This document shows positions 27,655 through 52,790 of a DNA stretch of 64,000 nt, piece after piece. The notes below the pieces were generated by a model. That model did not search any database, was not told the DNA's origin, and saw only the letters and a list, made by a program, of their open reading frames with translations. The stretch spans positions 1 to 64,000 of the forward strand of contig JAFXXN010000158.1 in the NCBI GenBank assembly GCA_017542245.1, written 5' to 3'. The number at the start of each line of letters is the position of its first letter. The first letter of the stretch is position 1. A program made the translations under genes and the position numbers. This DNA is from Lachnospiraceae bacterium (GTDB taxonomy: Bacteria; Bacillota; Clostridia; Lachnospirales; Lachnospiraceae).

Positions 27655-29319
27655 ATGTTTCAGATAAAGAATGTAACATTAACACATAAAAAAGATTTAA
27701 GAACCATTTTAGATAATTTCTCACTTGTTTTAAATGACGGTGACAGAGCTGTTATGATAGGCGAAGAGGGAAATGGAAAATCCACACTTATGAAGTGGAT
27801 ATATGATCCGGAACTGGTAGAGGATTATATTGAGTATTCCGGAGAGAAAGTGATAAATGGTGAGAGGCTCGGCTATCTGCCTCAGGAGCTGTCGGAGCAG
27901 GAAAAGGGAAAAACTGTATGCGAGTATTTTATGGATGCTTCAGGTTTCCTTGATAAAACTCCTAAAGAGCTGTCAAAGCTAGCTAACGATTTTCATGTTG
28001 AACCGGAGTTTTACTACAGGGAGCAGACGATGCAGACTCTTTCGGGTGGAGAGAGAGTAAAGGCTCAGATGATGAGGATTCTAATAGATGATTCGACCAT
28101 ACTTATGCTTGATGAACCCTCGAATGACATCGACATTGAGACCCTAGAGCTTATGGAAAAGCTTATAAACTCATGGGATCACGCGGTACTCTTTATATCA
28201 CATGACGAGACCCTGATAGAAAATACTGCTAATCGTGTGATACATTTTGAGCAGATACGCAGGAAAACCATGTGCAGACATACTGTGGCAAATATCCCAT
28301 ACAGGCAGTATGTGGAAGAAAGGCTGAATAACTTTAATAAGCAAGAACAGATGGCTATTACTGACCGAAAAGAAAAGGAGATACGTGAAGCAAAGTATCG
28401 ACGCCTTTTGCAGAAGGTTGAGCATGCACAGGGAGCTGTCTCCAGACAGGACCCTTCCATTGGAAAAAATCTGAAGGACAAAATGCATACTGTAAAGGCT
28501 ATGGGTAAGCGTTTTGAAAGATTGGATGAACAGATGACCGAGATGCCAGAGCAGGAGGAAGCTATATTCTTTAAGCTGGGAGATAAAGACAGCAGCATAC
28601 CTTCGGGAAAGTGGGTACTGGAATACGAGAGCCCGGAGCTAAAGACAAGTGATGGCAGCAGGGTATTGGCTGAAAACATTGTACTTAAAATACGAGGTTC
28701 CGAGAAAATAGCAATAGTTGGAACTAATGGTTGTGGAAAGACCACGCTAATTTCAAAGATAGCCGAGGATTTATTTGCAAGGTCTGATTTAAAAGTTCAG
28801 TATATGCCTCAGAATTATGAAGTATTACTTGAATTGGATGAGACACCGGTGGACTTCCTGGAGAATTCACTGATAAAGGATAATTGTAATATTGTATCAC
28901 AGTTTAATAACAGGGCAGAAAAGAGAAAAAAAGATTCTGAAAAGAAATCAGAAAGTGATTTTCGAGGAATACCCGGCGGAAAGGAATTTAGAACACAGAT
29001 ATGTACATATCTTGGTTCATTGAAGTATACTGCGGATGAGATGGAGCATCCTATACGTGAGCTTTCAGGCGGACAGAAAGCAAAGGTATTACTGCTTAAA
29101 CTGAGTATGTCAGGAGCTAACGTGCTGATACTTGATGAACCGACCAGAAACTTTTCCCCGTTATCAGGTCCTGTAATCCGGAAAATGCTAAAGGAATTTC
29201 CGGGAGCTATTATCAGTGTATCTCATGACAGAAAGTATCTTTCGGAAGTCTGTGACAAGATATATCGACTGACAGAGAAGGGGCTACGAAATCAATCGGA
29301 GGGACGGTTCTCTGATTGA
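27655..29319 (+). CDS. ABC-F ribosomal protection-type ATPase
   Basis: A 554-residue soluble protein with two ABC domains and no membrane part, the ABC-F plan. Domain 1: Walker A IGEEGNGKST, signature LSGGERVKAQ, Walker B ILMLDEPSND. Domain 2: Walker A VGTNGCGKTT, signature LSGGQKAKVL, Walker B VLILDEPTRNFSPLSG. The charged linker between them (about 225-300) would reach into the ribosome. Antibiotic-resistance ABC-Fs expel drugs that bind the peptidyl-transferase centre, and the attenuated leader upstream supports that role over a housekeeping one. The ATG at 27655 is chosen because GGGGG ends 7 bases upstream; the ATG at 27649 is too close. The last nine residues, NQSEGRFSD, come from the hairpin doublet. 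Confidence 0.9.
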   Translation: MFQIKNVTLTHKKDLRTILDNFSLVLNDGDRAVMIGEEGNGKSTLMKWIYDPELVEDYIEYSGEKVINGERLGYLPQELSEQEKGKTVCEYFMDASGFLDKTPKELSKLANDFHVEPEFYYREQTMQTLSGGERVKAQMMRILIDDSTILMLDEPSNDIDIETLELMEKLINSWDHAVLFISHDETLIENTANRVIHFEQIRRKTMCRHTVANIPYRQYVEERLNNFNKQEQMAITDRKEKEIREAKYRRLLQKVEHAQGAVSRQDPSIGKNLKDKMHTVKAMGKRFERLDEQMTEMPEQEEAIFFKLGDKDSSIPSGKWVLEYESPELKTSDGSRVLAENIVLKIRGSEKIAIVGTNGCGKTTLISKIAEDLFARSDLKVQYMPQNYEVLLELDETPVDFLENSLIKDNCNIVSQFNNRAEKRKKDSEKKSESDFRGIPGGKEFRTQICTYLGSLKYTADEMEHPIRELSGGQKAKVLLLKLSMSGANVLILDEPTRNFSPLSGPVIRKMLKEFPGAIISVSHDRKYLSEVCDKIYRLTEKGLRNQSEGRFSD

Positions 29320-29399
29320 AATGTTCAACAGTAAAAACACTGATAAATAGGAGATTTTGGTTGATGTAAAAATCAATCACAGAACCGTCCCGGTGATTG
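29293..29399. repeat. REPIN-like hairpin doublet 2
   Basis: Left arm 29293-29318 (CAATCGGAG-GGACGGTT-CTCTGATTG), right arm 29374-29399 (CAATCACAG-AACCGTCC-CGGTGATTG). The left arm supplies the last codons and the TGA stop of the ABC-F gene. The spacer is nearly identical to that of doublet 3 (30902). Confidence 0.9.
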
Positions 29400-29421
29400 A
29401 GTCGAGGGAGACTATGAAAAG

Positions 29422-30117
29422 ATGAAATACAAAAACTATTTTGAAAATTTTAAGATCGGTTCAGAGAAAGAATTGATTAAGGCGATAGAAGATCTCGGAT
29501 TTGTTCCGTTTTTTGAAAATGAGATTAAAGGTTTTTCTTTAGAGGAACACATTGCAGACAACTGCTGGTATTATGGTTCCGACCCATGGGAAGCGTGGGA
29601 ATGGAAAGGACCGGTAATTAGAAAATCCAAATGTGCATACGGAAAGTTTATGTTTAACAAGGCTGTATATATAAGCAGAAAATGGTTTCCTGATTTTGCA
29701 AATTATCGTAGGGATGGGTATGATTTTGATGCGAGATATGATGACGGACTAGCTTCGCGCGATGATAAATACCTGTATGATTTAATAGAAAAAAATGCTC
29801 CGGTTCTTTCCAAACCTTTGAAATCTCTTGGAAACTACCGCAAAGGTGGCAGAAAAGGGTTTGACAGTTCTATTCTACGGCTTCAGAAACAAGGTTATAT
29901 CGTGATCAGCGATTTTACGCATGCCAAGGATAAACAAGGTAATGAGTATGGCTGGGGCATAGCTGAGTATTCGATTCCTGAGAAATTATGGGAAGATGGA
30001 TTTAGGAATGAAGTTTACAGACGTACCCCTGAAGAGTCGTTTGAAAGGCTTGTGGGTCATCTTAAACAAATTCTCCCCGGTATATCTGAAGAACTGATAA
30101 GAAAAATCATTAAATAG
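29422..30117 (+). CDS. AlkZ-related protein
   Basis: A 231-residue protein. The strings IEDLGFVPFFENEIKGFSLE, YGSDPWEAWEWKGPVI and DFANYRRDGYDFDARYDDGL are typical of a family annotated as AlkZ-related, distantly linked to the winged-helix DNA glycosylase fold that repairs alkylated or crosslinked DNA. No catalytic role has been verified for this branch. It begins 22 bases after the hairpin doublet, with GGGAG a little far upstream, and is followed 18 bases later by a kinase-like gene. Confidence 0.7.
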   Translation: MKYKNYFENFKIGSEKELIKAIEDLGFVPFFENEIKGFSLEEHIADNCWYYGSDPWEAWEWKGPVIRKSKCAYGKFMFNKAVYISRKWFPDFANYRRDGYDFDARYDDGLASRDDKYLYDLIEKNAPVLSKPLKSLGNYRKGGRKGFDSSILRLQKQGYIVISDFTHAKDKQGNEYGWGIAEYSIPEKLWEDGFRNEVYRRTPEESFERLVGHLKQILPGISEELIRKIIK

Positions 30118-30135
30118 TTAAAGGAAGAACGAAAT

Positions 30136-30924
30136 ATGAACTATTTTATAGAAGGGATACAGGGTGCCGGAAAAAGCACACTTGTGGGAAAGCTGGCAGA
30201 GATGAAGCCGGACTGCAAAATATTTCGCGAGGGTGATTACAACCCTGTGGAGCTTGCATGGTGTGCTTATGTCGGAAAAGAAAAGTATCGGGAGATATTT
30301 GAAAAATATGCACCTATACAAAGCGAGATAGAAGAAAAAAGCCATGTTGAAGATGATCACATGGTGATCTGTTATACACAGATACTTACGGATATACCCG
30401 GGTTTCATAAGGATCTGGAACAGTATGAGATATACAATGCCCGAGTTGGACGCGAAGAGTTTGAGAAGATTATCCTCTCGAGATACGGTAATTGGGATGG
30501 TGAAGAACAGATTTTTGAATGCTCTTTGCTACAGAATATAGTTGAGAATCAGATGTTGTATTTTGATATGCAGGATGAGGAGATCATTGCATTTTATAAA
30601 AAAATAGCTGATGTTTTGGCACAGAAGCAATACCGTATCCTGTATCTTGATACGGAGGATGTGGCAGGCTCACTTGAGGTTATCCGTAAGGAAAGAGTGG
30701 ATGAAAAAGGAAACGAGATATGGTATCAGATGATGTTGCAGTTCCTTGAAAGTTGCCCTTATGGTAAGAAACACGGATTTAAAGGTTTTGATGATCTGGT
30801 GGTTCATCTTGAGCACCGTAAAACACTTGAAAAGCGGATAATGAATGAAATCTTCGGTGAACATGCTGTAATACTTAAATCCAAGGACTATGATTTAGAA
30901 TCGATTAGAGGGACGGTTCTCTGA
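30136..30924 (+). CDS. P-loop kinase-like protein
   Basis: A 262-residue protein that opens with a Walker A motif, MNYFIEGIQGAGKSTLVGKL, then has REGDYNPVELAWC, where a substrate Glu/Asp is expected in nucleoside or small-molecule kinases. No clear lid signature lets it be named. Residues 255-262 (ESIRGTVL) and the stop codon are contributed by the left arm of a hairpin doublet, so the native C terminus was probably replaced. GGAAGAACGAAAT precedes the ATG. It may phosphorylate a small molecule or drug, by analogy with the similar genes around it. Confidence 0.75.
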   Translation: MNYFIEGIQGAGKSTLVGKLAEMKPDCKIFREGDYNPVELAWCAYVGKEKYREIFEKYAPIQSEIEEKSHVEDDHMVICYTQILTDIPGFHKDLEQYEIYNARVGREEFEKIILSRYGNWDGEEQIFECSLLQNIVENQMLYFDMQDEEIIAFYKKIADVLAQKQYRILYLDTEDVAGSLEVIRKERVDEKGNEIWYQMMLQFLESCPYGKKHGFKGFDDLVVHLEHRKTLEKRIMNEIFGEHAVILKSKDYDLESIRGTVL

Positions 30925-31008
30925 TTGAAATGTTTAATAGCAAAAATACTGATAAACAGGCGGGTTTGGTTGATGCAAAAATCAATCACAGAACCGTCCC
31001 GGTGAATG
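30902..31008. repeat. REPIN-like hairpin doublet 3
   Basis: Left arm 30902-30927 overlaps the end of the kinase-like gene and supplies its TGA; right arm 30983-31008 ends CGGTGAATGA. The spacer matches that of doublet 2 at most positions (GGTTGATGCAAAAATCAATC), so one is a recent copy of the other. Confidence 0.9.
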
Positions 31009-31020
31009 AAAGGAATAGAA

Positions 31021-31590
31021 ATGAAGGAAATAAAGGATATTACTAAGGATCAGTGGGCTTCGCTCTTTAACGAGCTGCATCCGGGATATTTTGAGAGAGA
31101 TTATGTAAAAAGAGTAGCTGATGATGAACCGGCTTCAGAGATGTTTTTGAGTTTGAATGGCTTTGATGAGTATATTTACGAAAAGTCATTTCCGGGGAAT
31201 ATCACATTTGGATATTATAACGGAGATTTTAAGGACCTTCTGACAGCAGTTGAAAAAGTTATGCCTCACTGGGTTCCGCTGTTTAGTGAAAAGTCGCGTG
31301 TATACTGTGGTTTTGTGGATGGAAAGATTGCAAGCTTCTGTATGATCGAGAATTTTGGAGAGCATACGGTGTCCGGAAATAAACTTAAAATCGGCGGCCC
31401 GGGTTGTGTAGGAACGGTACCGGAATATCGTGACCGGGGAATCGGACTTACTATGGTTAAGAACGTTACAAAGATTCTTAAAGATGAAGGGTATGCTCTC
31501 AGCTATATACATTATACATATGAGACCGGGTGGTATGCAAAACTTGGTTACAAAGTGGTATTAAGCTGGACCGGAAAAGGGATAATATAG
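31021..31590 (+). CDS. GNAT-family N-acetyltransferase
   Basis: A 189-residue GNAT protein. The acetyl-CoA-binding motif A is VPEYRDRGIGLTMVKNVTKIL, followed by SYIHYTYETGWYAKLGYKVV, which fits a late-strand motif B. The N-terminal half is not close to a known substrate class. ATG at 31021 behind AAAGGAATAGAA. Comes directly after hairpin doublet 3. Confidence 0.85.
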   Translation: MKEIKDITKDQWASLFNELHPGYFERDYVKRVADDEPASEMFLSLNGFDEYIYEKSFPGNITFGYYNGDFKDLLTAVEKVMPHWVPLFSEKSRVYCGFVDGKIASFCMIENFGEHTVSGNKLKIGGPGCVGTVPEYRDRGIGLTMVKNVTKILKDEGYALSYIHYTYETGWYAKLGYKVVLSWTGKGII

Positions 31591-31613
31591 TCTGACCGAT
31601 CAGGAAAGGGAAA

Positions 31614-32594
31614 ATGATGGATTTTGCGGCTTTTGTTAAGGATATTACTGATAATAAGTGGAATGTCTATGGAGTTGAAGTATATGAAAACGGAATTCTG
31701 ACTCACAGCTTTGGAGATACTAAAGGGATATATGATCTTTATTCCGCTACAAAAACCATTACTTCTATAGCTTTCGGAATAGCATATGATGAGGGAAAGA
31801 TTGACCTTGATGAGACTGTTTTGACATACCTTCCTGAAGATAAGGTTTCAAATATGTCTGAAGAACAAAATAATACTTTTAGAAAGATATCGCTCAGAAG
31901 ACTTATGACTATGTCAATAGCCGATATACCATTTGTTGCGGAAGGAGACAGCTGGATTGATTTTGCATTGGCATGCCCTATAAGTAACCCTGAAGAAAAG
32001 GTATTTAATTATAGTAATATAAATACATATCTTGTCGGAGTATGTTTGACAAAGGCTATAGGCAGTGACCTTGGGGCTTTTATTGAGGAGCGGATATTTA
32101 AACCTTTGGACATAGTTAATTTTGAGTATGCAAGATGTCCTGAAGGATATTTTTACGGTGCGTCAAGAGCAAAACTTTCTGTCCATGACTTAAGCAAAAT
32201 AGGATTACTTCTCTGTAATGGCGGCGAATACAAAGGTAAACGGATAGTTTCTGAGAAATATGTTGAGATGGCTACTTCAGTTCAGCAGATGAATAGGGAA
32301 GGGGGATACGGCTTTTTTATCTGGAAGTATAGGGATGGTTTCAGCATTAATGGAAAATGGGGACAGAAATGTTATATTTTGCCAAATGAAAGAATAATAG
32401 TAACATATTTATCTCATTTTGAAGATGGCTCGCATTCTCTTAAAGAAAGTATGGAAAAAAATATCTTAAATGTCCCTGAAATGATAATTCAGAGTTTTGT
32501 GGAAAATACTAAAAACATTTTAAGGGATAATCTTGCAGGTATATATCTGCATGGCTCGGCAGTTATGGGCTGTTACAATCCTGAAAAAAAGTGA
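31614..32594 (+). CDS. Serine beta-lactamase-like hydrolase fused to nucleotidyltransferase (5' part)
   Basis: The 326-residue reading frame has a class C beta-lactamase-like domain (about 1-285) and then the start of a nucleotidyltransferase. SxxK is in YSATKTITSIAFG, YxN is YSNIN, and KWGQKCYILPN fits the third motif. From about 290 it continues as FVENTKNILRDNLAGIYLHG and SAVMGCYNPE, the N terminus of an aminoglycoside-type nucleotidyltransferase, and then stops because of an A-run frameshift. The continuation is in the next frame. With the shift corrected it would be about 540 residues. No separate ribosome binding site is convincing at the join. A sequencing error or a real mutation in the A-run is possible. 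Confidence 0.8.
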   Translation: MMDFAAFVKDITDNKWNVYGVEVYENGILTHSFGDTKGIYDLYSATKTITSIAFGIAYDEGKIDLDETVLTYLPEDKVSNMSEEQNNTFRKISLRRLMTMSIADIPFVAEGDSWIDFALACPISNPEEKVFNYSNINTYLVGVCLTKAIGSDLGAFIEERIFKPLDIVNFEYARCPEGYFYGASRAKLSVHDLSKIGLLLCNGGEYKGKRIVSEKYVEMATSVQQMNREGGYGFFIWKYRDGFSINGKWGQKCYILPNERIIVTYLSHFEDGSHSLKESMEKNILNVPEMIIQSFVENTKNILRDNLAGIYLHGSAVMGCYNPEKK

Positions 32595-33237
32595 CTTGGA
32601 CTTTTTAGTAGTTGTAAAAGAAAATGTAAAAGATGAGACCAAGAAAGCTTTTATGGAAATGGTCGTGGCTCTGAATGCACAGACCCCAGGTAAGGGTATA
32701 GAAATGAGCATAGTCAAAAGAGAAGTCTGTGATCCTTTTGTATATCCGACTCCTTTTGAATTACATTTTTCACAGATGCATATCAAATGGTACAGTGATA
32801 ATCCGGATGATTACATCAGAAAAATGAATGGAACGGATAAGGATCTGGCTGCTCATTTTACAGTAATAAAAGCTCGTGGAAAGTGCTTGTTCGGATTAGC
32901 CATCAGTGAAGTGTTCGGTGAAGTTCATGAACAGTACTATATGGATTCTTTGTGGAGTGATATAGAGGAAGCTGCAGAGGAAATTACAGATAATACCATG
33001 TATCTGACTTTGAATTTGGCTAGAGTCATGGCGTGGATCAAGGAGAAAAAGATCCTTTCAAAGCAGGAAGGCGGAGAATGGGGACTAAATAATCTGCCTG
33101 ATAAATATCATCCATTATTACAGGAGGCTCTTAAGGAATATAAGGGCATGGAACCGGATTATAATATGGAAATGGCTATTACTTATGCAAATGATATGCT
33201 GGCTAGAATTCAATCAGAGGGACGGTTCTCTGATTGA
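32533..33237 (+). CDS. ANT/aadA-like nucleotidyltransferase (3' part after frameshift)
   Basis: This frame continues the nucleotidyltransferase: true sequence starts near 32584 with KKSDLDFLVVVKENV. Together with the upstream GSAVMGCYNPE it forms the G-S-x10-D-x-D metal- and nucleotide-binding motif of adenylyltransferases that inactivate aminoglycosides. The helical C-terminal part (about 120-225, with YLTLNLARVMAWIKEKKILS) is typical of the ANT(9)/ANT(3'')-like group. Residues before about 17 are out of frame with the family and are not real. The final residues IQSEGRFSD and the stop come from hairpin doublet 4. Substrate is not established. Confidence 0.75.
   Translation: MQVYICMARQLWAVTILKKSDLDFLVVVKENVKDETKKAFMEMVVALNAQTPGKGIEMSIVKREVCDPFVYPTPFELHFSQMHIKWYSDNPDDYIRKMNGTDKDLAAHFTVIKARGKCLFGLAISEVFGEVHEQYYMDSLWSDIEEAAEEITDNTMYLTLNLARVMAWIKEKKILSKQEGGEWGLNNLPDKYHPLLQEALKEYKGMEPDYNMEMAITYANDMLARIQSEGRFSD
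32584..32590 (+). other. Seven-A run at the frameshift
   Basis: A run of seven A residues joins the two frames. Removing one A restores a continuous PEKSDLDFLVV sequence. Slippage, mutation or a base-calling error are all possible. Confidence 0.85.
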
Positions 33238-33315
33238 AAATCAAATTTTTGAAAGCGTTGAAAATAGGACGTTTTGACGATTGAAAAATCAATTAAAGAA
33301 CCGTCCCGGTGATTG
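33211..33315. repeat. REPIN-like hairpin doublet 4
   Basis: Left arm 33211-33236 (perfect CAATCAGAG-GGACGGTT-CTCTGATTG) supplies the end and TGA of the nucleotidyltransferase; right arm 33290-33315. The spacer contains GCGTTGAAAATAGGAC, as in doublets 1 and 5. Confidence 0.9.
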
Positions 33316-33328
33316 AAAAGGGAAAAAC

Positions 33329-33532: not shown

Positions 33533-33555
33533 TATAGAGTAATGGAGAACTAGCG

Positions 33556-35163: not shown

Positions 35164-35736
35164 ATGATACATGTAAAGAAAACTGACAGATCCTGCTTTG
35201 AAATATATGATTCAATAAGCATGAATGTCGATGTAAGAAGTGAATACAAGGTAAAAAGAATTGATAACGGCCTGGGCGGATTAACTTTCGAGGAGATTCC
35301 GGTCAAGCCTTATATCAAAGACTTAAGCGTTTATGAACGTGCAACTGAATATGAGAAAGAATTTGATATCACATACTGGAGCTTTTATATGGCTTTTGAT
35401 GATGAAAAGCCGGTAGGAGCAGTTACTATCGCAGCAAGAACAGATAAGCTGTATATGCTTGCCGGACGTGATGACGCCTGTGTTTTGTGGGATATCCGTG
35501 TTGCAGATGGATATAAACATCAGGGTATCGGCCAGAAAATGCTTGATCTTGCGATAAAGGATGCTAAGGCGGACGGTTACAGGCAGATGATTATAGAATG
35601 TCAGAATAACAATGTCCCTGCATGTAACTTTTACAGAAAACAGGGGGCTTTACTTTCAAAGATTGATATGTATGCTTACTATCAGGAAGAAGCATGCAGG
35701 GATGAAGTACAGTTCGTGTGGTATCTGGACTTATAA
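35164..35736 (+). CDS. GNAT acetyltransferase, streptothricin acetyltransferase-like
   Basis: A 190-residue GNAT enzyme. Motif A is LWDIRVADGYKHQGIGQKML and motif B is MIIECQNNNVPACNFYRKQG. The N-terminal DNGLGGLTFEEIPVKPYIKDLS and the ending EVQFVWYLDL closely follow streptothricin acetyltransferase (SatA-like) proteins of Bacillota, which acetylate the beta-lysine of streptothricin. A role in streptothricin tolerance is therefore plausible, although the group also includes enzymes of unknown substrate. AAAGGACGAGAAA precedes the ATG. Doublet 5 begins 2 bases after the stop. Confidence 0.85.
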   Translation: MIHVKKTDRSCFEIYDSISMNVDVRSEYKVKRIDNGLGGLTFEEIPVKPYIKDLSVYERATEYEKEFDITYWSFYMAFDDEKPVGAVTIAARTDKLYMLAGRDDACVLWDIRVADGYKHQGIGQKMLDLAIKDAKADGYRQMIIECQNNNVPACNFYRKQGALLSKIDMYAYYQEEACRDEVQFVWYLDL

Positions 35737-35738
35737 AT

Positions 35739-35842
35739 CAATCAGAGGGACGGTTCTTTGATTGAAATTTAAATTGCAAAAGGCATTGAAAATAGGACAT
35801 TCAGGAACATGGAAAATCAATCGGAGAACCGTCCCTCTGATT
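35739..35842. repeat. REPIN-like hairpin doublet 5
   Basis: Left arm 35739-35764 begins two bases after the acetyltransferase stop; right arm 35818-35842. The spacer has GCATTGAAAATAGGACATTC, like doublets 1 and 4. Confidence 0.9.
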
Positions 35843-35866
35843 GAAGGAGATGGAGAAAAGAAAAAG

Positions 35867-38049: not shown

Positions 38050-39201
38050 ATGAAGAAATTCATATTATTATTGGTGGTTTCTATTCTTCTTGTAGTATTA
38101 TCATGTTGCTCAAAAAATGAATCTTATGAAGTAGAAAACACAAGCAAAAATGATCCAGGTATAAAAAAAGAAATTGATGAGAATGGCATTGGTCTGTCAG
38201 GTACTACCAGTATTTTTGTTAGTGATTTATCAAAAGGCAACCGGATTAATATCACAGATATTGAAACGATAAATAAAATTATAAATGAACTTATGAATAA
38301 TAAGTTTGAATATGAAAAACAAGATAATGATAGTGATGAAAATAGTAATACATATATAGCTGTTTTTTATTGTGGCGATACAGAAATTAATGATTGTATG
38401 TATTATAGTGATCATCATATACTAATAAATTCTAAAGATATGTTTTTTGAATCAAAATTACTCAGCTATGAGTTAATTGATAACAAAATAAAAGGTAAAG
38501 TCAGTGATGTTATCATACCGGATATTCCATCAAAGTTTAATTATGCAGGGTTTAATCTTATCAATTATCCTCGAGATGTTACGATCAACAGATACCCAAT
38601 AGATACGGTAGGATTAATATATGAAGAAAATCCATCAGGCTTTACAGAAAACAAAAATTATGGGGTTTTAAAAATATATGTTACGGAGTATTTTATAAAG
38701 AGATATATAGATGAATGTCCTGTACATTCTGAAAATGAGTTTAAGTTTAAAGTAAACAATAATATTATTACTGTTTCTGAGAACAGCCTTAAGGTTGAGA
38801 ACGAATTGTTTGGATTGATTTCAGAAAGAGAGATTATTTCTTTCTGTTATAATAATACATTTTTTATGGAAGCAACTGCACTTTCAGAGATTATTGGGAT
38901 GTTTTCTATGTCTCATTATAGAGAAAAACCGAATGATAAATATATGAAGACGGAAAATTTAAATTTTGAATCTGATTATATGGGACTTCCATACACTGAT
39001 TCGATGTATCGCTATGGATACGATTACTATACCCAAGGATTTGTACGTGAAAAACCTAAAGGGGAAATAATCGGAGTGAATTTAAGAGGAAATTATATTT
39101 ATAAAGACAATGAAGGTAATTATTTTATTGATGCTAATGGATTGTATTATATGATTTTTATGGAACGTTCAAAAATCGAGCCAGATATTACTTTAGATTA
39201 G
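38050..39201 (+). CDS. Putative lipoprotein of unknown function
   Basis: A 383-residue protein with a lipoprotein signal peptide: MKKFILLLVVSILLVVLSCCS with lipobox V-L-S-C. The remainder (about 22-383) is extracytoplasmic, acidic and Asn/Tyr-rich, and not recognised. The C-terminal part has YRYGYDYYTQGFVREKPKGE. The ATG at 38050 is chosen because AAGGAGAAATTG lies just upstream. The gene is visibly more AT-rich than its neighbours, a possible sign of separate acquisition. A family 3 half-repeat follows directly after its stop. Confidence 0.75.
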   Translation: MKKFILLLVVSILLVVLSCCSKNESYEVENTSKNDPGIKKEIDENGIGLSGTTSIFVSDLSKGNRINITDIETINKIINELMNNKFEYEKQDNDSDENSNTYIAVFYCGDTEINDCMYYSDHHILINSKDMFFESKLLSYELIDNKIKGKVSDVIIPDIPSKFNYAGFNLINYPRDVTINRYPIDTVGLIYEENPSGFTENKNYGVLKIYVTEYFIKRYIDECPVHSENEFKFKVNNNIITVSENSLKVENELFGLISEREIISFCYNNTFFMEATALSEIIGMFSMSHYREKPNDKYMKTENLNFESDYMGLPYTDSMYRYGYDYYTQGFVREKPKGEIIGVNLRGNYIYKDNEGNYFIDANGLYYMIFMERSKIEPDITLD

Positions 39202-39238
39202 TTTCCGAGGAAACGCAGAAGGCGTTTTCGAGGTGACA
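39201..39238. repeat. Family 3 palindrome, single hairpin
   Basis: CCGAGGAAACGC-AGAA-GGCGTTTTCGAGGTGAC, almost identical to the right hairpin at 2990-3022. It lies between the lipoprotein gene and the next acetyltransferase. Confidence 0.75.
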
Positions 39239-39266
39239 TAGACTATATAAAAAATGGAGTAACTTC

Positions 39267-40561: not shown

Positions 40562-40592
40562 AATCAGAAATGGGTCTAATGCTATTAGAGTA

Positions 40593-40685
40593 AGGCTTCC
40601 CCTTGAGGGGATTATCTCTACCACGAAGTGGTTGAGATGCCTCACTGGCGAAGTGAAGCTGTCAGCGAAGCTGACTGATGAGGTG
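40593..40685. repeat. Branched palindromic repeat (family 2, long form)
   Basis: It shares the order of hairpins with the copy at 27533 (CTTGAGGGGATTATCTC, CCACGAAGTGG, CACTGGCGAAGTG), but its last hairpin is CTGTCAGCGAAGCTGAC instead of GGCACGAAGTGCC. It ends TGATGAGGTG. Confidence 0.8.
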
Positions 40686-44338: not shown

Positions 44339-44367
44339 GTGACAAAAAGAACCGTCCCCAGTGTCAC
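44339..44367. repeat. Solo GACA-type hairpin
   Basis: GTGACAAAAAGAACCGTCCC followed by CAGTGTCAC, one arm of the GACA type. It ends 4 bases before the GGAGG of the next gene, so it would sit in that mRNA as a 5' hairpin. Confidence 0.8.
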
Positions 44368-45912: not shown

Positions 45913-45913
45913 T

Positions 45914-46384
45914 ATGATTAGTTTAAAACCGATAACAAGAGAAAATCTGGAAGAAGTACTTGAATTAAGGGTAAATGAAGACCAGAAAAAGTATGTAATC
46001 TCGAATGCAGAATCGCTTTCGAGAGCCTATGTGTACTCTGAGACAGCGTATCCATTTGCAGTATACGATGATGATACTATTGTGGGGTTTATTATGATGG
46101 GGTATTATGAAGTTAAGGCGTATTATACTCTTTGGGAATTCATGATAGACCGCAAATTTCAGAATAAGGGTTATGGCAGGCAAGCCTTGAAATTGGGATT
46201 GGATTTTATAAGAGACAGATTTGGACCAGTTGATATTTATACAGGAGTAACACCGGGAAACATCATAGCTAAAAAACTGTATGAATCAGTTGGATTTGAG
46301 GGTACAGGACTGGTTGAACTGGGCATGGAGGAAATGAAGTTGAAGTGCAACAAAAATCGATTAGAGGGACGGTTCTCTGATTGA
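45914..46384 (+). CDS. GNAT-family N-acetyltransferase (spermidine-type)
   Basis: A 156-residue GNAT protein. The N-terminal ISLKPITRENLEEVLELRVN and motif A FMIDRKFQNKGYGRQALKLG with the following PVDIYTGVTPGNIIAKKLYE resemble the BltD/PaiA-like polyamine acetyltransferase group. The start at 45914 lies one base after the previous stop and behind GGTGGATATAAT. The last six residues EGRFSD and the stop are from hairpin doublet 6. Confidence 0.85.
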   Translation: MISLKPITRENLEEVLELRVNEDQKKYVISNAESLSRAYVYSETAYPFAVYDDDTIVGFIMMGYYEVKAYYTLWEFMIDRKFQNKGYGRQALKLGLDFIRDRFGPVDIYTGVTPGNIIAKKLYESVGFEGTGLVELGMEEMKLKCNKNRLEGRFSD

Positions 46385-46463
46385 AAATGAATGTGCAATT
46401 GTTATAGGTTTTATGAGGCTTTTTTGAAATAAAAAAACAATCACGGAACCGTCCCTGTGATCG
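46358..46463. repeat. REPIN-like hairpin doublet 6
   Basis: The left arm (46358-46383) overlaps the acetyltransferase 3' end and provides its TGA; right arm 46438-46463. The spacer contains TGTTATAGG...TTTT and is like that of doublet 7. Confidence 0.88.
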
Positions 46464-46493
46464 AAAATCCAGGGTAAGAGAAAGGGAAAAACG

Positions 46494-46775: not shown

Positions 46776-46796
46776 TGATTTTCTTAAGAAGAAAAT

Positions 46797-46825
46797 GTGA
46801 CAAAAAGAACCGTCCCCATTGTCAC
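46797..46825. repeat. Solo GACA-type hairpin
   Basis: GTGACAAAAAGAACCGTCCC followed by CATTGTCAC, nearly identical to the solo arm at 44339. It lies in the gap between the DUF3795 gene and the next HAD gene. Confidence 0.8.
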
Positions 46826-46845
46826 CAAGGAGAACGAAGGATAAC

Positions 46846-47565
46846 ATGATACTGATATTTGATTTCTTTGAAACACTTTTAAATAATAAATCCATAGATT
46901 TTAATCGTGGATTAAAGCCATTATGGGAGAAGCATTATAGAGATAAATGTTCATTTGAAGAGATATGTAAATTTGGAGAGAAACTGTTCGTTCATCTTCA
47001 GAATATGCATAAAGATGGCAATGAGTTTCCTTTTGTAAAGGATGAACTGCCTTTATACGCAGAAAAATACGGTGGGGAAGTAGTCAGTATGACGACTGAA
47101 GAAGAAACGGATTTTCTAATGCTGTGCAATGATATGGAACTTATCCCCGGTGTAAAGGATATGCTGGATGAATTTGAAAATGATAGAATACCTATGTATG
47201 TTCTGTCAAACAGTGGTTTTACTGCAAAAGCTCTTTGGACTGTGCTTGACCGCTTTGGAATAGGGCAGTATTTCTCTAATGTATGGTCAAGTGCTGATTA
47301 TGGAAAGATTAAGCCATGCCGAGAGGTTTTTGATATGGCTATAAATACTGCCTTATCAGAACATCCCGAGGAAAGAAAAGAGGATATCCTGTTTATCGGG
47401 GATATGTATGAGACCGATGTAACAGGTGCCCAAGCCGCCGGAATAAAATCAGTGTGGATCAACAGAAAGAAAGAGGAAGACGTTCTAAAATATGCAACAT
47501 ATCAGATTGCAGAAACAAGTAGCTTGTTAGACTTAGTAAAATCAATCAGAGGGACGGTTCTCTGA
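46846..47565 (+). CDS. HAD-IA family hydrolase
   Basis: A 239-residue HAD phosphatase. Motif I is LIFDFFETLLNN (nucleophile Asp, second position Phe instead of Asp, like haloacid dehalogenases), motif II is MYVLSNSGFTAK, the Lys is in ADYGKIKPCREVF and motif IV is LFIGDMYETDVTGA. It could be a dehalogenase or a phosphatase. The ATG at 46846 with GAAGGATAAC is preferred over an upstream TTG. The ending KSIRGTVL and the stop come from hairpin doublet 7. Confidence 0.87.
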   Translation: MILIFDFFETLLNNKSIDFNRGLKPLWEKHYRDKCSFEEICKFGEKLFVHLQNMHKDGNEFPFVKDELPLYAEKYGGEVVSMTTEEETDFLMLCNDMELIPGVKDMLDEFENDRIPMYVLSNSGFTAKALWTVLDRFGIGQYFSNVWSSADYGKIKPCREVFDMAINTALSEHPEERKEDILFIGDMYETDVTGAQAAGIKSVWINRKKEEDVLKYATYQIAETSSLLDLVKSIRGTVL

Positions 47566-47648
47566 TTGAAAATGAAGGTGTCATTGTTATTGGAAAAACA
47601 AGGGGTTTCATAAATGAAAAATCAATCGCAGAACCGTCCCTATGATTG
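47543..47648. repeat. REPIN-like hairpin doublet 7
   Basis: Left arm 47543-47568 encodes the last residues and TGA of the HAD gene; right arm 47623-47648. Both arms are close to consensus, and the spacer resembles that of doublet 6. Confidence 0.9.
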
Positions 47649-47661
47649 AAAGGGAGAAAAA

Positions 47662-48294
47662 ATGAAAACAAGAAGTGAAGCATTAACATACGGACTATCA
47701 TTTCCTGATACTTACTCTGATATTCCTTTTCATGATCCGAACTGGCAATTGGTACGATACAAGGGTAACAAAAAGGCGTTTCTTTGGACGTACGAAAAGG
47801 ATGGATATGTGAATCTGAATGTCAAGGTTGATCCGGAGAGAGCTTACCTTTGGCGGAGCATGTACAAGTCAGTCATCCCGGGATACCATCAGAATAAGGA
47901 TCATTGGAACACGATCATTCTGGACGAAAGTATACCGGAGAATGATATAAAGACCATGATAGCTGAAAGTTATGAGCTGGTAAGCGACAGCCCCTCAAAG
48001 CGGATATATGAAGCTGTAAAGAAGATACCTTACGGACATGTGGCTACATACGGTCAGGTGGCAGAACTGGCAGGGGACAGGAAGATGGCCAGGGCTGTAG
48101 GTAATGCACTTCATAAAAATCCTGACCCGGATGGTATTCCCTGTTACAGAGTAGTTAATTCAAAAGGTGAGCTGGCCGGTGAGTTTGCTTTTGGAGGTGC
48201 GTGGGAACAAGGGAAACTTCTTGAAGCAGAAGGGGTTGAAGTTATAAATGGAAGGGTAGACCTTTCTAGATACCAGTGGAGTGTGGGTAAATAA
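47662..48294 (+). CDS. MmcQ/YjbR domain fused to O6-alkylguanine methyltransferase-like domain
   Basis: A 210-residue two-domain protein. Residues 1-112 form a MmcQ/YjbR-like DNA-binding fold (LVRYKGNKKAFLWTYEKDGY, VNLNVKVDPERAYLWR). Residues 113-205 form the C-terminal domain of alkylguanine-DNA alkyltransferases, with YEAVKKIPYGHVATYGQVAE, ARAVGNALHKNP and the active-site IPCYRVVNSKG in which the acceptor Cys is kept (PCYRV instead of PCHRV). A repair role, removing alkyl groups from DNA in a suicide reaction, is likely; the change of His to Tyr near the Cys is a variation. GGGAGAAAAA precedes the ATG. Confidence 0.88.
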   Translation: MKTRSEALTYGLSFPDTYSDIPFHDPNWQLVRYKGNKKAFLWTYEKDGYVNLNVKVDPERAYLWRSMYKSVIPGYHQNKDHWNTIILDESIPENDIKTMIAESYELVSDSPSKRIYEAVKKIPYGHVATYGQVAELAGDRKMARAVGNALHKNPDPDGIPCYRVVNSKGELAGEFAFGGAWEQGKLLEAEGVEVINGRVDLSRYQWSVGK

Positions 48295-48311
48295 AGAAAA
48301 GGAGAAGAAAA

Positions 48312-49196
48312 GTGGGAGAAATACAGTATTTTACATCGGAAAAAATAGCAGAAAACAGTTGGATGATTAAGAATAACTTCGGAGATTCTACACCTGCTAT
48401 TTGTTATCTTATTGAAGGAGAGAATTATGCACTTTTGATCGATTCGATCATTGGTATCGGTAATCTTAAAAAGTTTTGCGAGACACTGACAAAGAAACCG
48501 ATAAAGCTTGTCAATACGCATGCGCATTCAGATCATGTGGGAGGAAATTTCCATTTTGAAGAGTGTTATATGCATCATAGGGATATCGGCTTTTTTCAGA
48601 CAGTAATGGGGATAAATAAAGAAAAAGTATTTGAGATTACAAAGAATATGGCACCGGAAGATTTTAGGGAAAAGATGGTGCTTGACGATAATTTTGCTGA
48701 CTGGAAGCCGATGAAAACATACCCGGTATATGACGGCGATGAATTTGACCTCGGGGACAGGATAATAGAGGTTGTCGAGGTATTAGGACATACGGAAGGT
48801 TCTATAGTTCTGATCGATCATAAAACCAGGATATGTTATGCAGGTGACGCATGCAACAGTAATACATTGCTTGATCTGCCAACTTCATTACCGGTGGAGA
48901 CATATTACGGATATCTTAAGCATCTTAAAGATCATCAGCCCGAGTTTGACATGATGTACTGCGGACATGAATTCTTTAAAGCGGGAGTACTCGATGAAGC
49001 TTTGGAGACTGTGGCAACGGTGCTTGACGGTACGGATGCCAAGTGTGAAAGAATCGGAATAATGGGAACACCTGTCTTATATGCTGCGGAGAAGATAAAG
49101 GACGGATACCCCAGAGTAGATGGCAAACGTTTCAATATGAGCTATCTTCCTGACAGGATAAAAGCGCTTGAAAGCACTAAACAGATTATTAAATGA
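48312..49196 (+). CDS. Metallo-beta-lactamase-fold hydrolase
   Basis: A 294-residue metallohydrolase. Metal ligands: NTHAHSDHVGGNFHFE (H-x-H-x-D-H), later His in VEVLGHTEGSIVL and Asp in CYAGDACNS, and MYCGHEFFKAG with the last His. The order follows glyoxalase II or aryl-sulfatase-like MBL enzymes. The start is a GTG with AAAAGGAGAAGAAAA upstream, 17 bases after the previous gene, so the pair may share an mRNA. Substrate unknown. Confidence 0.88.
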   Translation: MGEIQYFTSEKIAENSWMIKNNFGDSTPAICYLIEGENYALLIDSIIGIGNLKKFCETLTKKPIKLVNTHAHSDHVGGNFHFEECYMHHRDIGFFQTVMGINKEKVFEITKNMAPEDFREKMVLDDNFADWKPMKTYPVYDGDEFDLGDRIIEVVEVLGHTEGSIVLIDHKTRICYAGDACNSNTLLDLPTSLPVETYYGYLKHLKDHQPEFDMMYCGHEFFKAGVLDEALETVATVLDGTDAKCERIGIMGTPVLYAAEKIKDGYPRVDGKRFNMSYLPDRIKALESTKQIIK

Positions 49197-49234
49197 TGGC
49201 ATCATTAATTAGGAGAAAAAGAGGTTGAGGAAAA

Positions 49235-49996
49235 ATGATAACAGATGCATTTGATAATTTAACAGAAGAAATAATAAAAGTAGGTCGTAATGAGAATGCC
49301 AAAAAGGTTGATGCATGCATATTAACATTCTCAAATGAGATCCTGAAATATGTACTTGAACAGTATGACTGTACAAAGATAGGAGATCTTTATTCTTCGA
49401 ACGGAACTAATCCCGTGTATGGCTTTTCATATAACGGGAAGGAATTTGCAGTATATATGTCTTATGTCGGTGCACCGGGATGCGTGGCAGATATTGAGGA
49501 TACAATGACAGTTATTAAAACCGATAAGTATGTCGTATTCGGGGGAAGCGGATGCCTCAATAAGGATATAGCGAGAGGCAGAGTTATGGTTCCGACAGCA
49601 GCATATCGTGATGAGGGTACCTCATATCATTATGTTCCGGCATCGGATTACATCAAAGTAAAGAACAGTGATGTTGTGGCATCCTTTATGGAAGAGGCAG
49701 GACTTCCCTTTATTCAAGGAAAGACCTGGACTACGGATGCTGTGCATCGTGAGACAAGGGGTAATTTTGAAAAAAGGAAGGCCGAGGGCTGTATATCTGT
49801 AGAAATGGAGTGCGCAGCAGTACAGGCTATGTGTGACTACAGAGGACTTAATGCATATTTCTTCTTTACATGCGGAGATCTTCTGGATGCACCTAAATGG
49901 GATGCCAGAAAAGAAAAAAATCAGAAGAAACACACGCAGCATGATCCCGGTCATTTTGAGATAGCGCTGGAACTGGCATCATATATTGTAAGATAA
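49235..49996 (+). CDS. Nucleoside phosphorylase-family protein
   Basis: A 253-residue phosphorylase (purine nucleoside/uridine phosphorylase fold) with ILTFSNEILKYVLEQYDC near the N terminus, VVFGGSGCLNKDIARGRVMV and CISVEMECAAVQAMCDYRG, the nucleoside-binding M-E motif, plus FFFTCGDLLDAP. It cleaves nucleosides with phosphate, giving a base and ribose phosphate. Length fits the family. Whether purines or uridine are used cannot be read. AGAGGTTGAGGAAAA precedes the ATG. Confidence 0.85.
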   Translation: MITDAFDNLTEEIIKVGRNENAKKVDACILTFSNEILKYVLEQYDCTKIGDLYSSNGTNPVYGFSYNGKEFAVYMSYVGAPGCVADIEDTMTVIKTDKYVVFGGSGCLNKDIARGRVMVPTAAYRDEGTSYHYVPASDYIKVKNSDVVASFMEEAGLPFIQGKTWTTDAVHRETRGNFEKRKAEGCISVEMECAAVQAMCDYRGLNAYFFFTCGDLLDAPKWDARKEKNQKKHTQHDPGHFEIALELASYIVR

Positions 49997-50042
49997 TGAC
50001 TATATATCAAGAATTATAATAATTTAGGAGAGGTGACAAATT

Positions 50043-50567
50043 ATGATCTTATTGGTAATTGATATGCAGAAAGGTATCGTAGATGAAGAACTATACGGCT
50101 ATGATACTTTTATAGAGAGGACGGTCAGACTGATCGAAGCGGCCAGAAAAAACAATGTTGAGGTAGTATATGTTAGGCATGATGCAGGTCCCGGCAGTGG
50201 AATGTCTGTTGGAGACGATGATTTTGAAATCGCAGATCAGGTTCGCCCCGAACAGGGAGAAAAGGTTTTTGTAAAAACAATAAACAGCTGTTTTGGAAAT
50301 AAAGACTTTAAGGAATATTTGAAACAGCAGGAAGACAAGCGCCTGATGATAATAGGTTTGCAGACAAATTATTGTATAGATGCCACAATTAAATCTGCTT
50401 TTGAAAGAGGCTTTGAGGTTATCATTCCGGAGGGAACAAACAGCACTTTCGACAATGATTATATGACTGGTGAAACTACCGTCAGGTATTATAACGAAGA
50501 TGTCTGGGAAAATATTGTTGATTCTGTAACCATCGAGGAAGCCATAGATATGTTGTCGCGAAAATAA
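50043..50567 (+). CDS. Isochorismatase-family cysteine hydrolase
   Basis: A 174-residue cysteine hydrolase. The catalytic triad is visible: Asp in LLVIDMQKGIVDEE, Lys in KVFVKTINSCFGN, Cys in IGLQTNYCIDATIKSAFERG. The substrates of this fold range from isochorismate to nicotinamide and ureidoacrylates; this member cannot be assigned. GGAGAGGTGACAAATT precedes the ATG; the next gene is 13 bases downstream and probably co-transcribed. Confidence 0.9.
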   Translation: MILLVIDMQKGIVDEELYGYDTFIERTVRLIEAARKNNVEVVYVRHDAGPGSGMSVGDDDFEIADQVRPEQGEKVFVKTINSCFGNKDFKEYLKQQEDKRLMIIGLQTNYCIDATIKSAFERGFEVIIPEGTNSTFDNDYMTGETTVRYYNEDVWENIVDSVTIEEAIDMLSRK

Positions 50568-50580
50568 CGAGGAAATTAAA

Positions 50581-51600
50581 ATGATTAAGCCTAACAGATT
50601 AAACAAAGGTGATAAAATTGCCATAGTCAGCCTTTCTTGGGGCGGTCTTGGTGATGCTGAACTGATCCATAAATACCATATAGCCAAAGAAAGATTGGAA
50701 AAAGATTTTGGGTTGGAAGTTATAACTATGCCCAACGCGCTGAAGGGCAGTGCATATATCTATGAGAATCCGGAGGCAAGAGCAAAAGATCTGATGGACG
50801 CATTTAAGGATGAATCCATAAAGGGGATTTTTTGTTCGATAGGCGGGGATGATACGGTAAGATTATTACCGTACATAGATTATGACATCATCAAAAACAA
50901 TCCCAAGATTTTTATGGGCTATTCGGATACTACGGTTAATCATTTTATGATGTACAAAGCAGGCTTGGTATCTTATTACGGACCTTCCGTTATGGCTGAA
51001 TTCGGTGAATATGTAAAAATGGCCGATTATACAAAAGAGGCTGTTGAGAACATATTGTTTTCAGACTGCAAGGGATATGAAATAAAGTCAAGCCCGGTAT
51101 ACTCTAAGGACCATGTTCCGTGGTCGGAAGAAAGCATTAATACAGCAAGAAAAATGATACCAGAAGAGCATGGGTATGAACTGTTGCAGGGTCGGGGCTC
51201 AGTAACAGGAAAGATTTTGGGCGGCTGTCTGGATGTTTTCCCTATGATAGTCGGAACTGAGATATGGCCCGAAGTAAGTGAATGGAAAGACAAGATATTA
51301 TTACTGGAAACCAGCGAAGAAAAACCGAGTCCGGATTTAGTGACATATTATCTGAGAAACCTGGGAGCTCAGGGGATTTTTGATGTAGTTAAAGGTATAC
51401 TAGTCGGTAAACCGCAGGATGAAATGTATTATGAAGAGTATAAGGAAGTATTTAGAAAGGTGATGAAGGAATTTCACTGTGAAGATTTGCCTATACTCTA
51501 TAATATCAATATCGGACATGCATTCCCCACAGGGATAATACCCTTAGGTCTGGATATGCAGATTGATTTTACAGAAAAACGGATAATTATTGTGGAATAG
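50581..51600 (+). CDS. S66-family peptidase, MccF-like
   Basis: A 339-residue serine peptidase of the LD-carboxypeptidase/MccF group. The nucleophile is in MGYSDTTVNHFMMYK, the supporting Glu in LLLETSEEKPSPD, the His in NIGHAFPTGIIPLG, and GIFCSIGGDDTVRLLPYID is the typical upstream strand. MccF cleaves the amide in microcin C-type nucleotide peptides and gives self-immunity; others recycle murein peptides. The MccF-like length and GGDDTVR motif favour the first, but a murein role is not excluded. CGAGGAAATTAAA precedes the ATG. Confidence 0.88.
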   Translation: MIKPNRLNKGDKIAIVSLSWGGLGDAELIHKYHIAKERLEKDFGLEVITMPNALKGSAYIYENPEARAKDLMDAFKDESIKGIFCSIGGDDTVRLLPYIDYDIIKNNPKIFMGYSDTTVNHFMMYKAGLVSYYGPSVMAEFGEYVKMADYTKEAVENILFSDCKGYEIKSSPVYSKDHVPWSEESINTARKMIPEEHGYELLQGRGSVTGKILGGCLDVFPMIVGTEIWPEVSEWKDKILLLETSEEKPSPDLVTYYLRNLGAQGIFDVVKGILVGKPQDEMYYEEYKEVFRKVMKEFHCEDLPILYNINIGHAFPTGIIPLGLDMQIDFTEKRIIIVE

Positions 51601-51648
51601 CAGGATAGAAGGCAGTGTACGGGATGAAATACGCAGCGTGTTACTTTT

Positions 51649-51674
51649 CAATCACAGAACCGTCCCTATGATTG
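51649..51674. repeat. Solo hairpin arm of the GGGACGG family
   Basis: CAATCACAG-AACCGTCC-CTATGATTG stands alone, in the right-arm orientation, between the MccF-like gene and the chloramphenicol phosphotransferase-like gene. It ends 12 bases before the AGGAG. Confidence 0.85.
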
Positions 51675-51693
51675 ATTATTAGGAGAAAAAGAA

Positions 51694-52206
51694 ATGGAAA
51701 AAGGAAAGATTATATTTTTAAACGGTGTTACAAGTGCAGGAAAGACAACAATCGTTGGGGCGCTTCAGGAGAGAAGGGACGTATTCTTTTATGTAGTGGC
51801 AAACGATCTGTTTCAAGAGATGGTTGGAGAGCAGTATTTACAGGAAAACTATTGGAAGTACCTTTCGGAAGTGATCATCATGATGTACCACACAGCAAAG
51901 CTGTATTCAGATATGGGAAAAAACGTGTTGATCGACGGTATCCTGGTTGAGCGAGAGGAGATAAAGCCGCATTATCAGCAACTCATGGAGATCATGAAGG
52001 ACAGTCCTTTGGAGATCGTGGAAGTGTATTGTCCGCTTGAAATATGCAGACAGAGGAACATAGATCGCGGTGACCGGTATGAAAGCCAGTCTGATGAGCA
52101 GGCAGAGCTCATGAGTAAGGACATTGTTTATAGTTTACGTGTGGATACCAGCATATCTTCAGCCGAGGAATGTGCGGAGCAGATCGTTCGCAAGTTTTGG
52201 GGTTAA
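51694..52206 (+). CDS. Chloramphenicol phosphotransferase-like protein
   Basis: A 170-residue P-loop kinase. The Walker A motif is FLNGVTSAGKTTIVGAL, followed by FYVVANDLFQEM, then NVLIDGILVEREEI and VYCPLEICRQRNIDRGDR, as in chloramphenicol 3-O-phosphotransferases (CPT), which inactivate chloramphenicol. The strings SAGKTT, ANDxF, CPLEICRQRN and RGDR fit well. Actual activity is not proven. AGGAGAAAAAGAA precedes the ATG. Confidence 0.87.
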   Translation: MEKGKIIFLNGVTSAGKTTIVGALQERRDVFFYVVANDLFQEMVGEQYLQENYWKYLSEVIIMMYHTAKLYSDMGKNVLIDGILVEREEIKPHYQQLMEIMKDSPLEIVEVYCPLEICRQRNIDRGDRYESQSDEQAELMSKDIVYSLRVDTSISSAEECAEQIVRKFWG

Positions 52207-52244
52207 GTATAAGATGGTAAAGAGGACTAAAAAGGAACACTTAG

Positions 52245-52787
52245 ATGGAAGATTTAAATAAACTTGAGAGGTTTGAAACCGAACATCTGATACTCAGAAA
52301 GGCGAGACCGGATGATATGGAATATATCTTAAAAAATGTCTGGTCCGATGAGTCCATATCAAAATATATGTTATGGAAACCGACCTATACAAAAGAAGAA
52401 GCTGAAGACAGAATGAAGAGAACCATGAATTATCAAAAATCAGCTGCGGCTTATTTTGTATGTTTAAAAGAAACGGATGAGCCTATAGGTTTTTGTGGGA
52501 TAAAAGAGGTTTCTCCCGGAGTTTATGAGGACAGCGGTATATGCATTGCTTCAAGATACCAGAGGCACGGATATGGGAAGGAAATGGTTAAAGCACTGCT
52601 AAATATAGCTTTTAACCTGTTCGGCGGAAAAGAGTTTATATACGGCTGTTGGAAAGAAAATAAACCTTCTGCCGCTCTTGCAAAGAGTCTTGGCTTTAAA
52701 TACACGCACAGTCTGGAAGAAGTGCGTGAGTGGGATGGTATGAAATATACAGCAGATTATTTTTCAATCACAGAACCATCCCTATGA
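52245..52787 (+). CDS. GNAT acetyltransferase, RimJ/RimL-type
   Basis: A 180-residue GNAT enzyme of the RimJ/RimL type: RFETEHLILRKARPDDMEYI near the N terminus, ETDEPIGFCGIKEV, and motif A CIASRYQRHGYGKEMVKAL, then KENKPSAALAKSLGFKY. Such enzymes acetylate amino termini or small amines. The final residues FSITEPSL and the TGA come from the solo hairpin at 52765. AAAAAGGAACACTTAG precedes the ATG. Confidence 0.88.
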   Translation: MEDLNKLERFETEHLILRKARPDDMEYILKNVWSDESISKYMLWKPTYTKEEAEDRMKRTMNYQKSAAAYFVCLKETDEPIGFCGIKEVSPGVYEDSGICIASRYQRHGYGKEMVKALLNIAFNLFGGKEFIYGCWKENKPSAALAKSLGFKYTHSLEEVREWDGMKYTADYFSITEPSL

Positions 52788-52790
52788 TTG
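52765..52790. repeat. Solo hairpin arm providing a stop codon
   Basis: CAATCACAG-AACCATCC-CTATGATTG. The reading frame of the RimJ/RimL-type gene enters it and ends at the TGA in TATGATTG. Confidence 0.85.

Follow-up and report, generated by a model that had tools for sequence, protein, structure and literature searches.

We identified, in a 64,000-nucleotide (nt) stretch of a contig from a Lachnospiraceae bacterium (the whole stretch is hereafter called the window), a family of short palindromic hairpins that overlap the 3' ends of genes and supply the last residues and the stop codons of six proteins. We consider these hairpins to be miniature elements similar to repetitive extragenic palindromic (REP) sequences and to their hairpin-forming doublets (REPINs), probably spread by Y1 transposases of the REP-associated tyrosine transposase (RAYT) type in a genus of ruminant Lachnospiraceae, and capping the gene ends that they enter; we put the probability of this reading at about 0.83. 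The evidence that carries it is that the same tails end unrelated proteins, that orthologues free of hairpins end differently, and that the hairpin core is dispersed over the genome and flanks RAYT genes in relatives.

Stop codons and C termini encoded by the hairpins

An earlier note on the window had claimed that hairpins overlap the 3' ends of six genes, and this is borne out by five inverted doublets and by a single hairpin at the GNAT gene starting at 52245. There are seven full doublets with AATCA-type stems in the window (left edges 13325, 29293, 30902, 33211, 35739, 46358 and 47543), five of which give the stop codon, after the residues EGRFSD in three cases (29293, 33211, 46358) and after RGTVL in two (30902, 47543); all protein ends are quoted here up to the stop. 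The remaining two start 23 nt (13325) and 2 nt (35739) past a stop, again as the note had it. These eight elements are as follows.

29293..29399, + strand: REPIN-like doublet; its first hairpin encodes NQSEGRFSD and the TGA of the ABC-F gene 27649-29319
30902..31008, + strand: doublet; encodes SIRGTVL and the TGA of the kinase-like gene 30136-30924
33211..33315, + strand: doublet; encodes QSEGRFSD and the TGA of the AadA_C-domain open reading frame (ORF) ending at 33237
46358..46463, + strand: doublet; encodes RLEGRFSD and the TGA of the GNAT gene (45914) ending at 46384
47543..47648, + strand: doublet; encodes SIRGTVL and the TGA of the HAD gene ending at 47565
52765..52790, + strand: single hairpin, reverse arm, core with one mismatch; encodes SITEPSL and the TGA of the GNAT gene 52245-52787
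35739..35843, + strand: doublet; starts 2 nt past the TAA of the GNAT gene 35164-35736
13325..13429, + strand: intergenic doublet, 23 nt past a stop

A few details of the earlier description need correction. The ABC-F gene does carry the EGRFSD tail, but its ATG lies at 27649 rather than at 27655, and the nucleotidyltransferase has the same tail, but its ORF shows only an AadA_C domain, the N-terminal part being missing in frame. The doublet at 35739 indeed starts 2 nt after a stop, but it may be more than a post-stop case: the gene end may itself have been altered by the element, because the element-free G006 orthologue is one codon longer (LDLN, against LDL here). The attribution of TEPSL to the opposite arm of the hairpin holds. 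Two side observations concern these loci: a beta-lactamase-domain ORF overlaps the AadA_C-domain ORF (31614-33237), and a 58-nt stretch made of a GNAT gene end and a hairpin occurs twice (51621-51678 and 52737-52794, 84% alike), as if the two had been copied together.

Genome-wide, 12 genes have an element-encoded stop, six in the window and six elsewhere, the latter encoding an APH-domain protein, a Cys/Met PLP enzyme, an RlmL-like methyltransferase, an FGGY kinase, a phosphodiesterase-domain protein and a GNAT. This count takes in the TEPSL gene, whose hairpin lacks the exact core, and leaves out an antisense ORF (L049), an 82-amino-acid ORF (L043:4797) and stops at -2 or -3 (L035, L042, L048). 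By rough arithmetic, with about 4,500 proteins assumed, a given six-residue end would be expected by chance in fewer than 0.001 proteins. Pfam domains were found in 11 of the 12 capped genes, the exception being the kinase-like one, and none of these domains reaches into the tail.

The following course of events would produce these ends. Insertion within the last few codons of a gene would lead translation into the hairpin, where it would stop at once in two frames (EGRFSD and RGTVL), while the other arm would give SITEPSL; the third frame would end at TAA where the AAAT edge follows a T, and would otherwise read NQRDGSLIE. The native last residues would be replaced and the start region of the next gene kept. 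Internal deletions would later turn a doublet into a singlet, a half hairpin or a scar, presumably in this direction, and would change the tail again. The new tails are probably neutral. As a separate observation, a methyltransferase-like gene (PrmA-like by eye; L062 2367-3503) seems to hold an in-frame hairpin with a GTGACA stem, which puts CDNGDGSFCHL inside the protein.

Alignment to orthologues, the check set by the earlier note, supports both the capping and the remodelling of tails, since element-free orthologues of the ABC-F protein, the nucleotidyltransferase, GNAT 45914 and the HAD protein end in other residues. For the ABC-F protein we compared the 12 best other loci, leaving out more distant matches (L140-L156) and with one locus cut by a contig end; none of the 11 readable orthologues ends in EGRFSD, and all end 3-12 residues past a conserved GL/GV, in native tails that are poorly conserved. 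The nucleotidyltransferase tail is absent from all 12 orthologue loci (IQTEGKT in G008, IQSKRT in G013), and that of GNAT 45914 from all 14, where G008 has LKQ and no element, G006 has CPGD at an apparent half-hairpin remnant, and the gene end in G010 holds another, repeat-like sequence that differs from the two repeats found as pairs in the window (see below). TEPSL was found in none of the eight orthologues of GNAT 52245 that were read (nine were found), the G008 end being ITDLSQCH, possibly a degenerate hairpin.

The other two genes have tails of REP type in relatives as well. One of nine orthologues of the kinase-like gene, that of G006, ends in SIRETVL by way of a single hairpin at the same place, while the G008 gene continues in frame into the next gene and the remaining ones end otherwise. 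Two of six HAD orthologues have such a tail, both through single hairpins and in different frames (SIRGTVL in G010, NQSEGRFSD in G006); the other four, that of G008 among them, have none, G008 being free of the hairpin. Point differences aside, the HAD site of G010 equals that of the window's genome (G000) minus the interval between two TGATTGA repeats, and therefore a simple deletion, presumably in this direction, would make a singlet from a doublet. Outside the window, nine of 19 gene ends had a usable match among the loci compared: the APH-domain gene of L043 has a different end in L294, L065:3751 ends in SIIGTVL here and in SITEPSR in L258, encoded by the opposite arm at the same site, and L065:3051 has the same tail in L272. 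Orthologous sites thus vary among doublet, singlet, remnant and nothing (G006, G008, G010, G013), and these states at the same gene ends of sister species indicate that the tails turn over.

The hairpin family and its putative transposases

The window contains 29 matches to the core GGGACGGTTCT with at most two mismatches, whereas 100 shuffled sequences gave a mean of 7.3 and a maximum of 15. In the whole genome there are 94 exact cores, 47 on each strand, and 0 matches to a reversed-pattern control. Using the stretches of G000 around every exact core, we grouped them into 76 clusters, namely, 28 doublets, all of them +/- inverted, and 48 singles. As in REP/REPIN families, the inverted doublet is a basic unit, a palindromic hairpin of 20-40 nt occurs at many sites, judging from the 94 exact cores and from the pairing counts given below, and the elements are mainly extragenic near gene 3' ends, only five of the 76 clusters lying inside a called gene. 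The hairpin is about 26 nt long and occurs either singly or as an inverted pair of about 105 nt. Its loop is constant and combines with several stem families (CAATCAGAG, GTGACAATG and GGCGACAG). A swapped-arm control (6.9 versus 5.2 paired bases on average) is weak since many hairpins share one stem, and we made no use of it. The flanks of the AATCA-type elements are A/T-rich, with T at -1 in 37/37 and A at +1 in 35/37.

The exact AATCA 27-mer has 53 matches in 49 stretches from nine assemblies (eight Lachnospiraceae and one Ruminococcus) in a survey that may have omitted records close to G000; all nine are metagenome-assembled, and several are labelled as rumen or omasum. A known RNA family as the identity of the hairpins was dropped, as Rfam gave 0 matches in the part of the window that was searched (27000-54000).

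We examined 25 RAYT-like (Y1) loci, 24 from chosen relatives and the genome's own. Nine of them have cores on both sides (at most one mismatch, within 400 nt, + upstream and - downstream), and five have exact ones, these being four RAYTs of the same genus (G010, G013, G019, G022) and that of G063. The upstream core is in + orientation in all 11 loci having one, and the downstream core is in - orientation in nine of ten. The aligned proteins have in common an HUH-like pattern (NH.H) and an invariant RY, and in the phylogenetic tree eight of the nine both-flanked loci belong to a single group of 13, whose support of 94/94 falls slightly short of the mark; four of the six same-genus members of this group have exact cores on both sides. 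In relatives, and as far as the loop core is concerned, RAYT genes do therefore occur with the same hairpins on their flanks. A separate group of six (100/99) contains three RAYTs, including that of G000, whose flanks are GGGGTCTGACCCC. The only Y1 gene of G000 was consequently dropped as the cognate RAYT, its flanks being this different repeat; its own C terminus, PGVRPHE (L076 4332-4979), is encoded by its GGGGTCTGACCCC repeat.

An apparent relic of a RAYT with GTGACA-type hairpins is present in G000. A cysteine-desulfurase-like gene directly follows the RAYT in G010, G019 and G022, and in the last two of these an RsmE-like gene directly precedes it (names by eye). The same place in G000 (L062, C86:161700-169000, 4256-4306) retains about the last 17 RAYT codons and the downstream hairpin, and tblastn gave 82% over 17 residues with an E-value of 3e-4 in one locus. 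As the RAYT is reduced to this relic, the GTGACA-type hairpins of the genome look orphaned. We infer that RAYTs mobilise, or mobilised, the hairpins. In another genome, a C-terminal fragment of a RAYT (L241; G032:C61, ~111500-111700) lies in a 3.2-kb locus that also contains near-core matches; G032 has 60 cores, and this is perhaps another orphaned family.

The window also contains the following members of the family.

51649..51674, + strand: single hairpin, intergenic, within the repeated 58-nt stretch
44341..44366 (edges nominal), + strand: single hairpin of the GTGACA stem family, same loop core
46799..46824 (edges nominal), + strand: single hairpin of the GTGACA stem family
27447..27511 (edges nominal), + strand: doublet of the GTGACA stem family, within a short doubtful ORF
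23341..23407 (edges nominal), + strand: doublet of the GGCGACAG stem family, 9 nt past a stop

Other repeats in the window are a CRISPR-like array with nine repeat copies at a spacing of 65-68 nt (1381-1969) and two further repeats with two copies each, at 27537-27609 and 40592-40664 (92% alike) and at 2983-3028 and 39198-39243 (91% alike).

Position at gene ends and competing explanations

With gene starts called by our own heuristic, AATCA-type elements adjoin 46 gene 3' ends and 43 gene 5' ends. Twenty-six of the 46 gene 3' ends lie at -30 to +5 nt of the element edge: 13 are 1-30 nt inside the element (seven at -27, five at -23 and one at -3), two of which, an antisense ORF and the one at -3, are not counted as capped, and 13 are 0-5 nt ahead of it, followed by one at 6-10 and three at 11-20 nt. 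None of the 43 gene 5' ends is within 10 nt of an element. For co-directional gene pairs and elements of any type, the element is closer to the stop than to the next start in 41/52 cases (p = 4e-5), which a need to spare ribosome-binding sites may explain. In the other assemblies, the 53 exact hairpins have 42 gene ends at -110 to +60 nt, of which ten are at -27 or -23, five otherwise inside, 15 at 0-5, two at 6-10, three at 11-20, none at 21-40 and seven at 41-60 nt; this count retains probable antisense ORFs (two ending in QSENRPSD) and a few orthologous or overlapping loci.

The motif AAT could by itself favour positions next to a stop. Its rate in 187 element-free genes is 0.096 per position 1-5 nt past the stop and 0.044 at 6-20 nt, i.e. 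about two-fold, whereas the observed excess is several times larger, and therefore the motif alone does not explain the peak. Six stop-adjacent cases have orthologues, including the 35736 gene end described above: L043:10341 ends in PGNI where G022 has PGNIPQI, L065:7583 is one residue longer than L172, and L037:4169 (right side) has the same length at 60% identity; the other two are taken up below. Part of the 0-5 nt peak may thus itself be capping, by the AA of the element's edge after a T. The concentration at gene 3' ends suggested to the author of the earlier note a target preference. The concentration is strong, but the preference is unproven, since selection accounts for part of it and the AAT motif gives only about two-fold; targeted insertion and selection are inseparable in these data.

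Several observations weigh against the REP/REPIN reading. The draft genome comprises 203 contigs, and its contamination is estimated at 8.6%. A crude rule credits only 57 of 104 hairpins with at least seven paired bases, although 41 of those have 9-10. The GTAG/GTGG foot of the GTAG REP superfamily is missing, no such consensus being found at the flanks of 37 AATCA elements. In the tree, L108 has cores on both flanks and falls outside the group of 13, while L123 and L223 are same-genus members of the group without a core. There is no RAYT with AATCA-type stems among the 25 loci or among 30 loci from a profile search, where an automatic scan singled out two: in one, CAATCA sits immediately outside a stem of another kind, and in the other, CAATC is remote from any stem. 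A cognate full-length RAYT was not found in G000, the only Y1 match there having another repeat type in its flanks. Copy number does not follow RAYT presence either, G009 having 208 cores and no RAYT match. Finally, the native stop is kept in two of the stop-adjacent cases (L036 and L043:15786), leaving the protein end unchanged. We do not treat the missing cognate RAYT as decisive because, according to the portion consulted of PMC3733652, REP families and transposase genes are not obviously correlated; our confidence is limited to the value given above, the grouping in the tree and the number of same-genus RAYTs being less clean than first thought.

The strongest competing explanation, compatible with the REP/REPIN identity and in our judgement evenly balanced between true and false, is that insertion is indifferent to gene ends, that selection clears the elements from genes and ribosome-binding sites, and that the tails are neutral by-products. 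The lack of elements within 10 nt of gene 5' ends is what protected ribosome-binding sites would give, and the position of the tails beyond Pfam domains and the poor conservation of native ABC-F tails agree with it. However, uniform insertion in 3' flanks predicts no sharp drop such as that seen past 5 nt after the stop, both here (13, 1, 3) and in the other assemblies (15, 2, 3), for which AAT motifs account only about two-fold.

Rather improbable is a second explanation, by which the hairpins terminate transcription or stabilise mRNA and are retained at gene ends for that function, their overlap with stop codons being incidental. The seven AATCA doublets do fold as RNA with energies of -37 to -51 kcal/mol, and the elements are concentrated at gene 3' ends. 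On the other hand, near-identical copies lie at many places, equally on both strands, they are present or absent between sister species and flank RAYT genes, and the Rfam search of 27000-54000 gave no match. A function acquired after insertion is possible.

We regard as very unlikely a third explanation, in which the doublets serve an array of gene cassettes as recombination sites, in the manner of integron attC sites, and lie at the 3' ends of accessory genes that read in one direction. In its favour, small co-directional genes form an array at 27-54 kb, and sister species differ in content by entire genes. Of ten collinear gaps longer than 450 nt (by eye; G006, G008), four have a hairpin at their left break or no more than ~50 nt from it. 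The left breaks of the other six, however, are free of hairpins, the RAYT flanks point elsewhere, and the elements are dispersed genome-wide on both strands, also beside ordinary metabolic genes. A cassette array as the main account was thus rejected on the dispersal and on the reading of the collinear gaps. The array itself (27000-54000) holds GNATs, HAD, methyltransferases and phosphotransferase-like genes, and G006, G008 and G010 largely keep its order, lacking or gaining single genes. That the tails are native ends resembling the element by accident has next to no probability and was rejected, since hairpin-free orthologues (ABC-F, HAD, GNAT 45914 and the APH-domain gene) lack them and the same tails occur on unrelated protein families, even though IQS is also found in the G013 nucleotidyltransferase (IQSKRT), where it is possibly itself a deletion scar.

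Relation to known repeats and biological meaning

Mobile palindromes that enter coding genes are known from Rickettsia, whose palindromic elements are mostly internal and in frame rather than caps at 3' ends.

The phenomenon itself is already known for other hairpin repeats, and what we describe is not a new kind of system. In the sections of PMC3733652 considered here, REPs of the GTAG type are reported to provide stop codons; these REPs and REP dimers are, like our hairpins, short palindromes located mostly downstream of coding regions and near RAYT genes, and they frequently form pairs in opposite orientation. In comparison with what those sections describe, the present family has no GTAG foot, conserves the loop core, combines one loop with several stem families, carries TGA stops inside the hairpin, and has orthologues that reveal tail turnover. 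RAYT classes 2.6 and 3 also lack a GT[AG]G consensus according to the text seen of PMC6006769, and the REPIN/RAYT (TnpAREP) systems treated there share with ours a gene for a Y1 HUH protein flanked by hairpins of a dispersed family and the inverted doublets, whereas G000 has only a relic and no cognate full-length RAYT.

In the enterobacterial RU-1, RU-2 and RU-3 elements, as far as the excerpts of PMC2759123 describe them, a small mobile repeat likewise removes the normal stop and adds C-terminal residues past the conserved domain, as RU-1 does in an amidase. Those elements measure 103-168 bp, and the peptides added in the RU-1 cases are longer, whereas here about 7-9 residues are added in a dozen genes and orthologous sites are found in several states. 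In the open-licence literature searched we recognised no paper on this hairpin family. What is new is a clostridial family in which the stems differ around a conserved loop, and the tail turnover followed through orthologues.

It is conceivable, if doubtful, that the elements are three-frame stop cassettes with a real insertion bias for stop codons, continually rewriting C termini across the genus, in which case the altered ends would outlive both the hairpin, as the scars CPGD and ITDLSQCH may suggest, and the transposase, which is deleted here. Independently of that, the family provides a clean, testable example of mobile hairpins that change protein ends, in different frames among sister species. 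It extends REP/RAYT biology to ruminant Lachnospiraceae, with elements in which the loop is conserved and the stems differ, unlike foot-tagged REPs. For annotators, EGRFSD or RGTVL at the ends of unrelated proteins should be taken as repeat-derived and is no evidence of a sorting or degradation signal.

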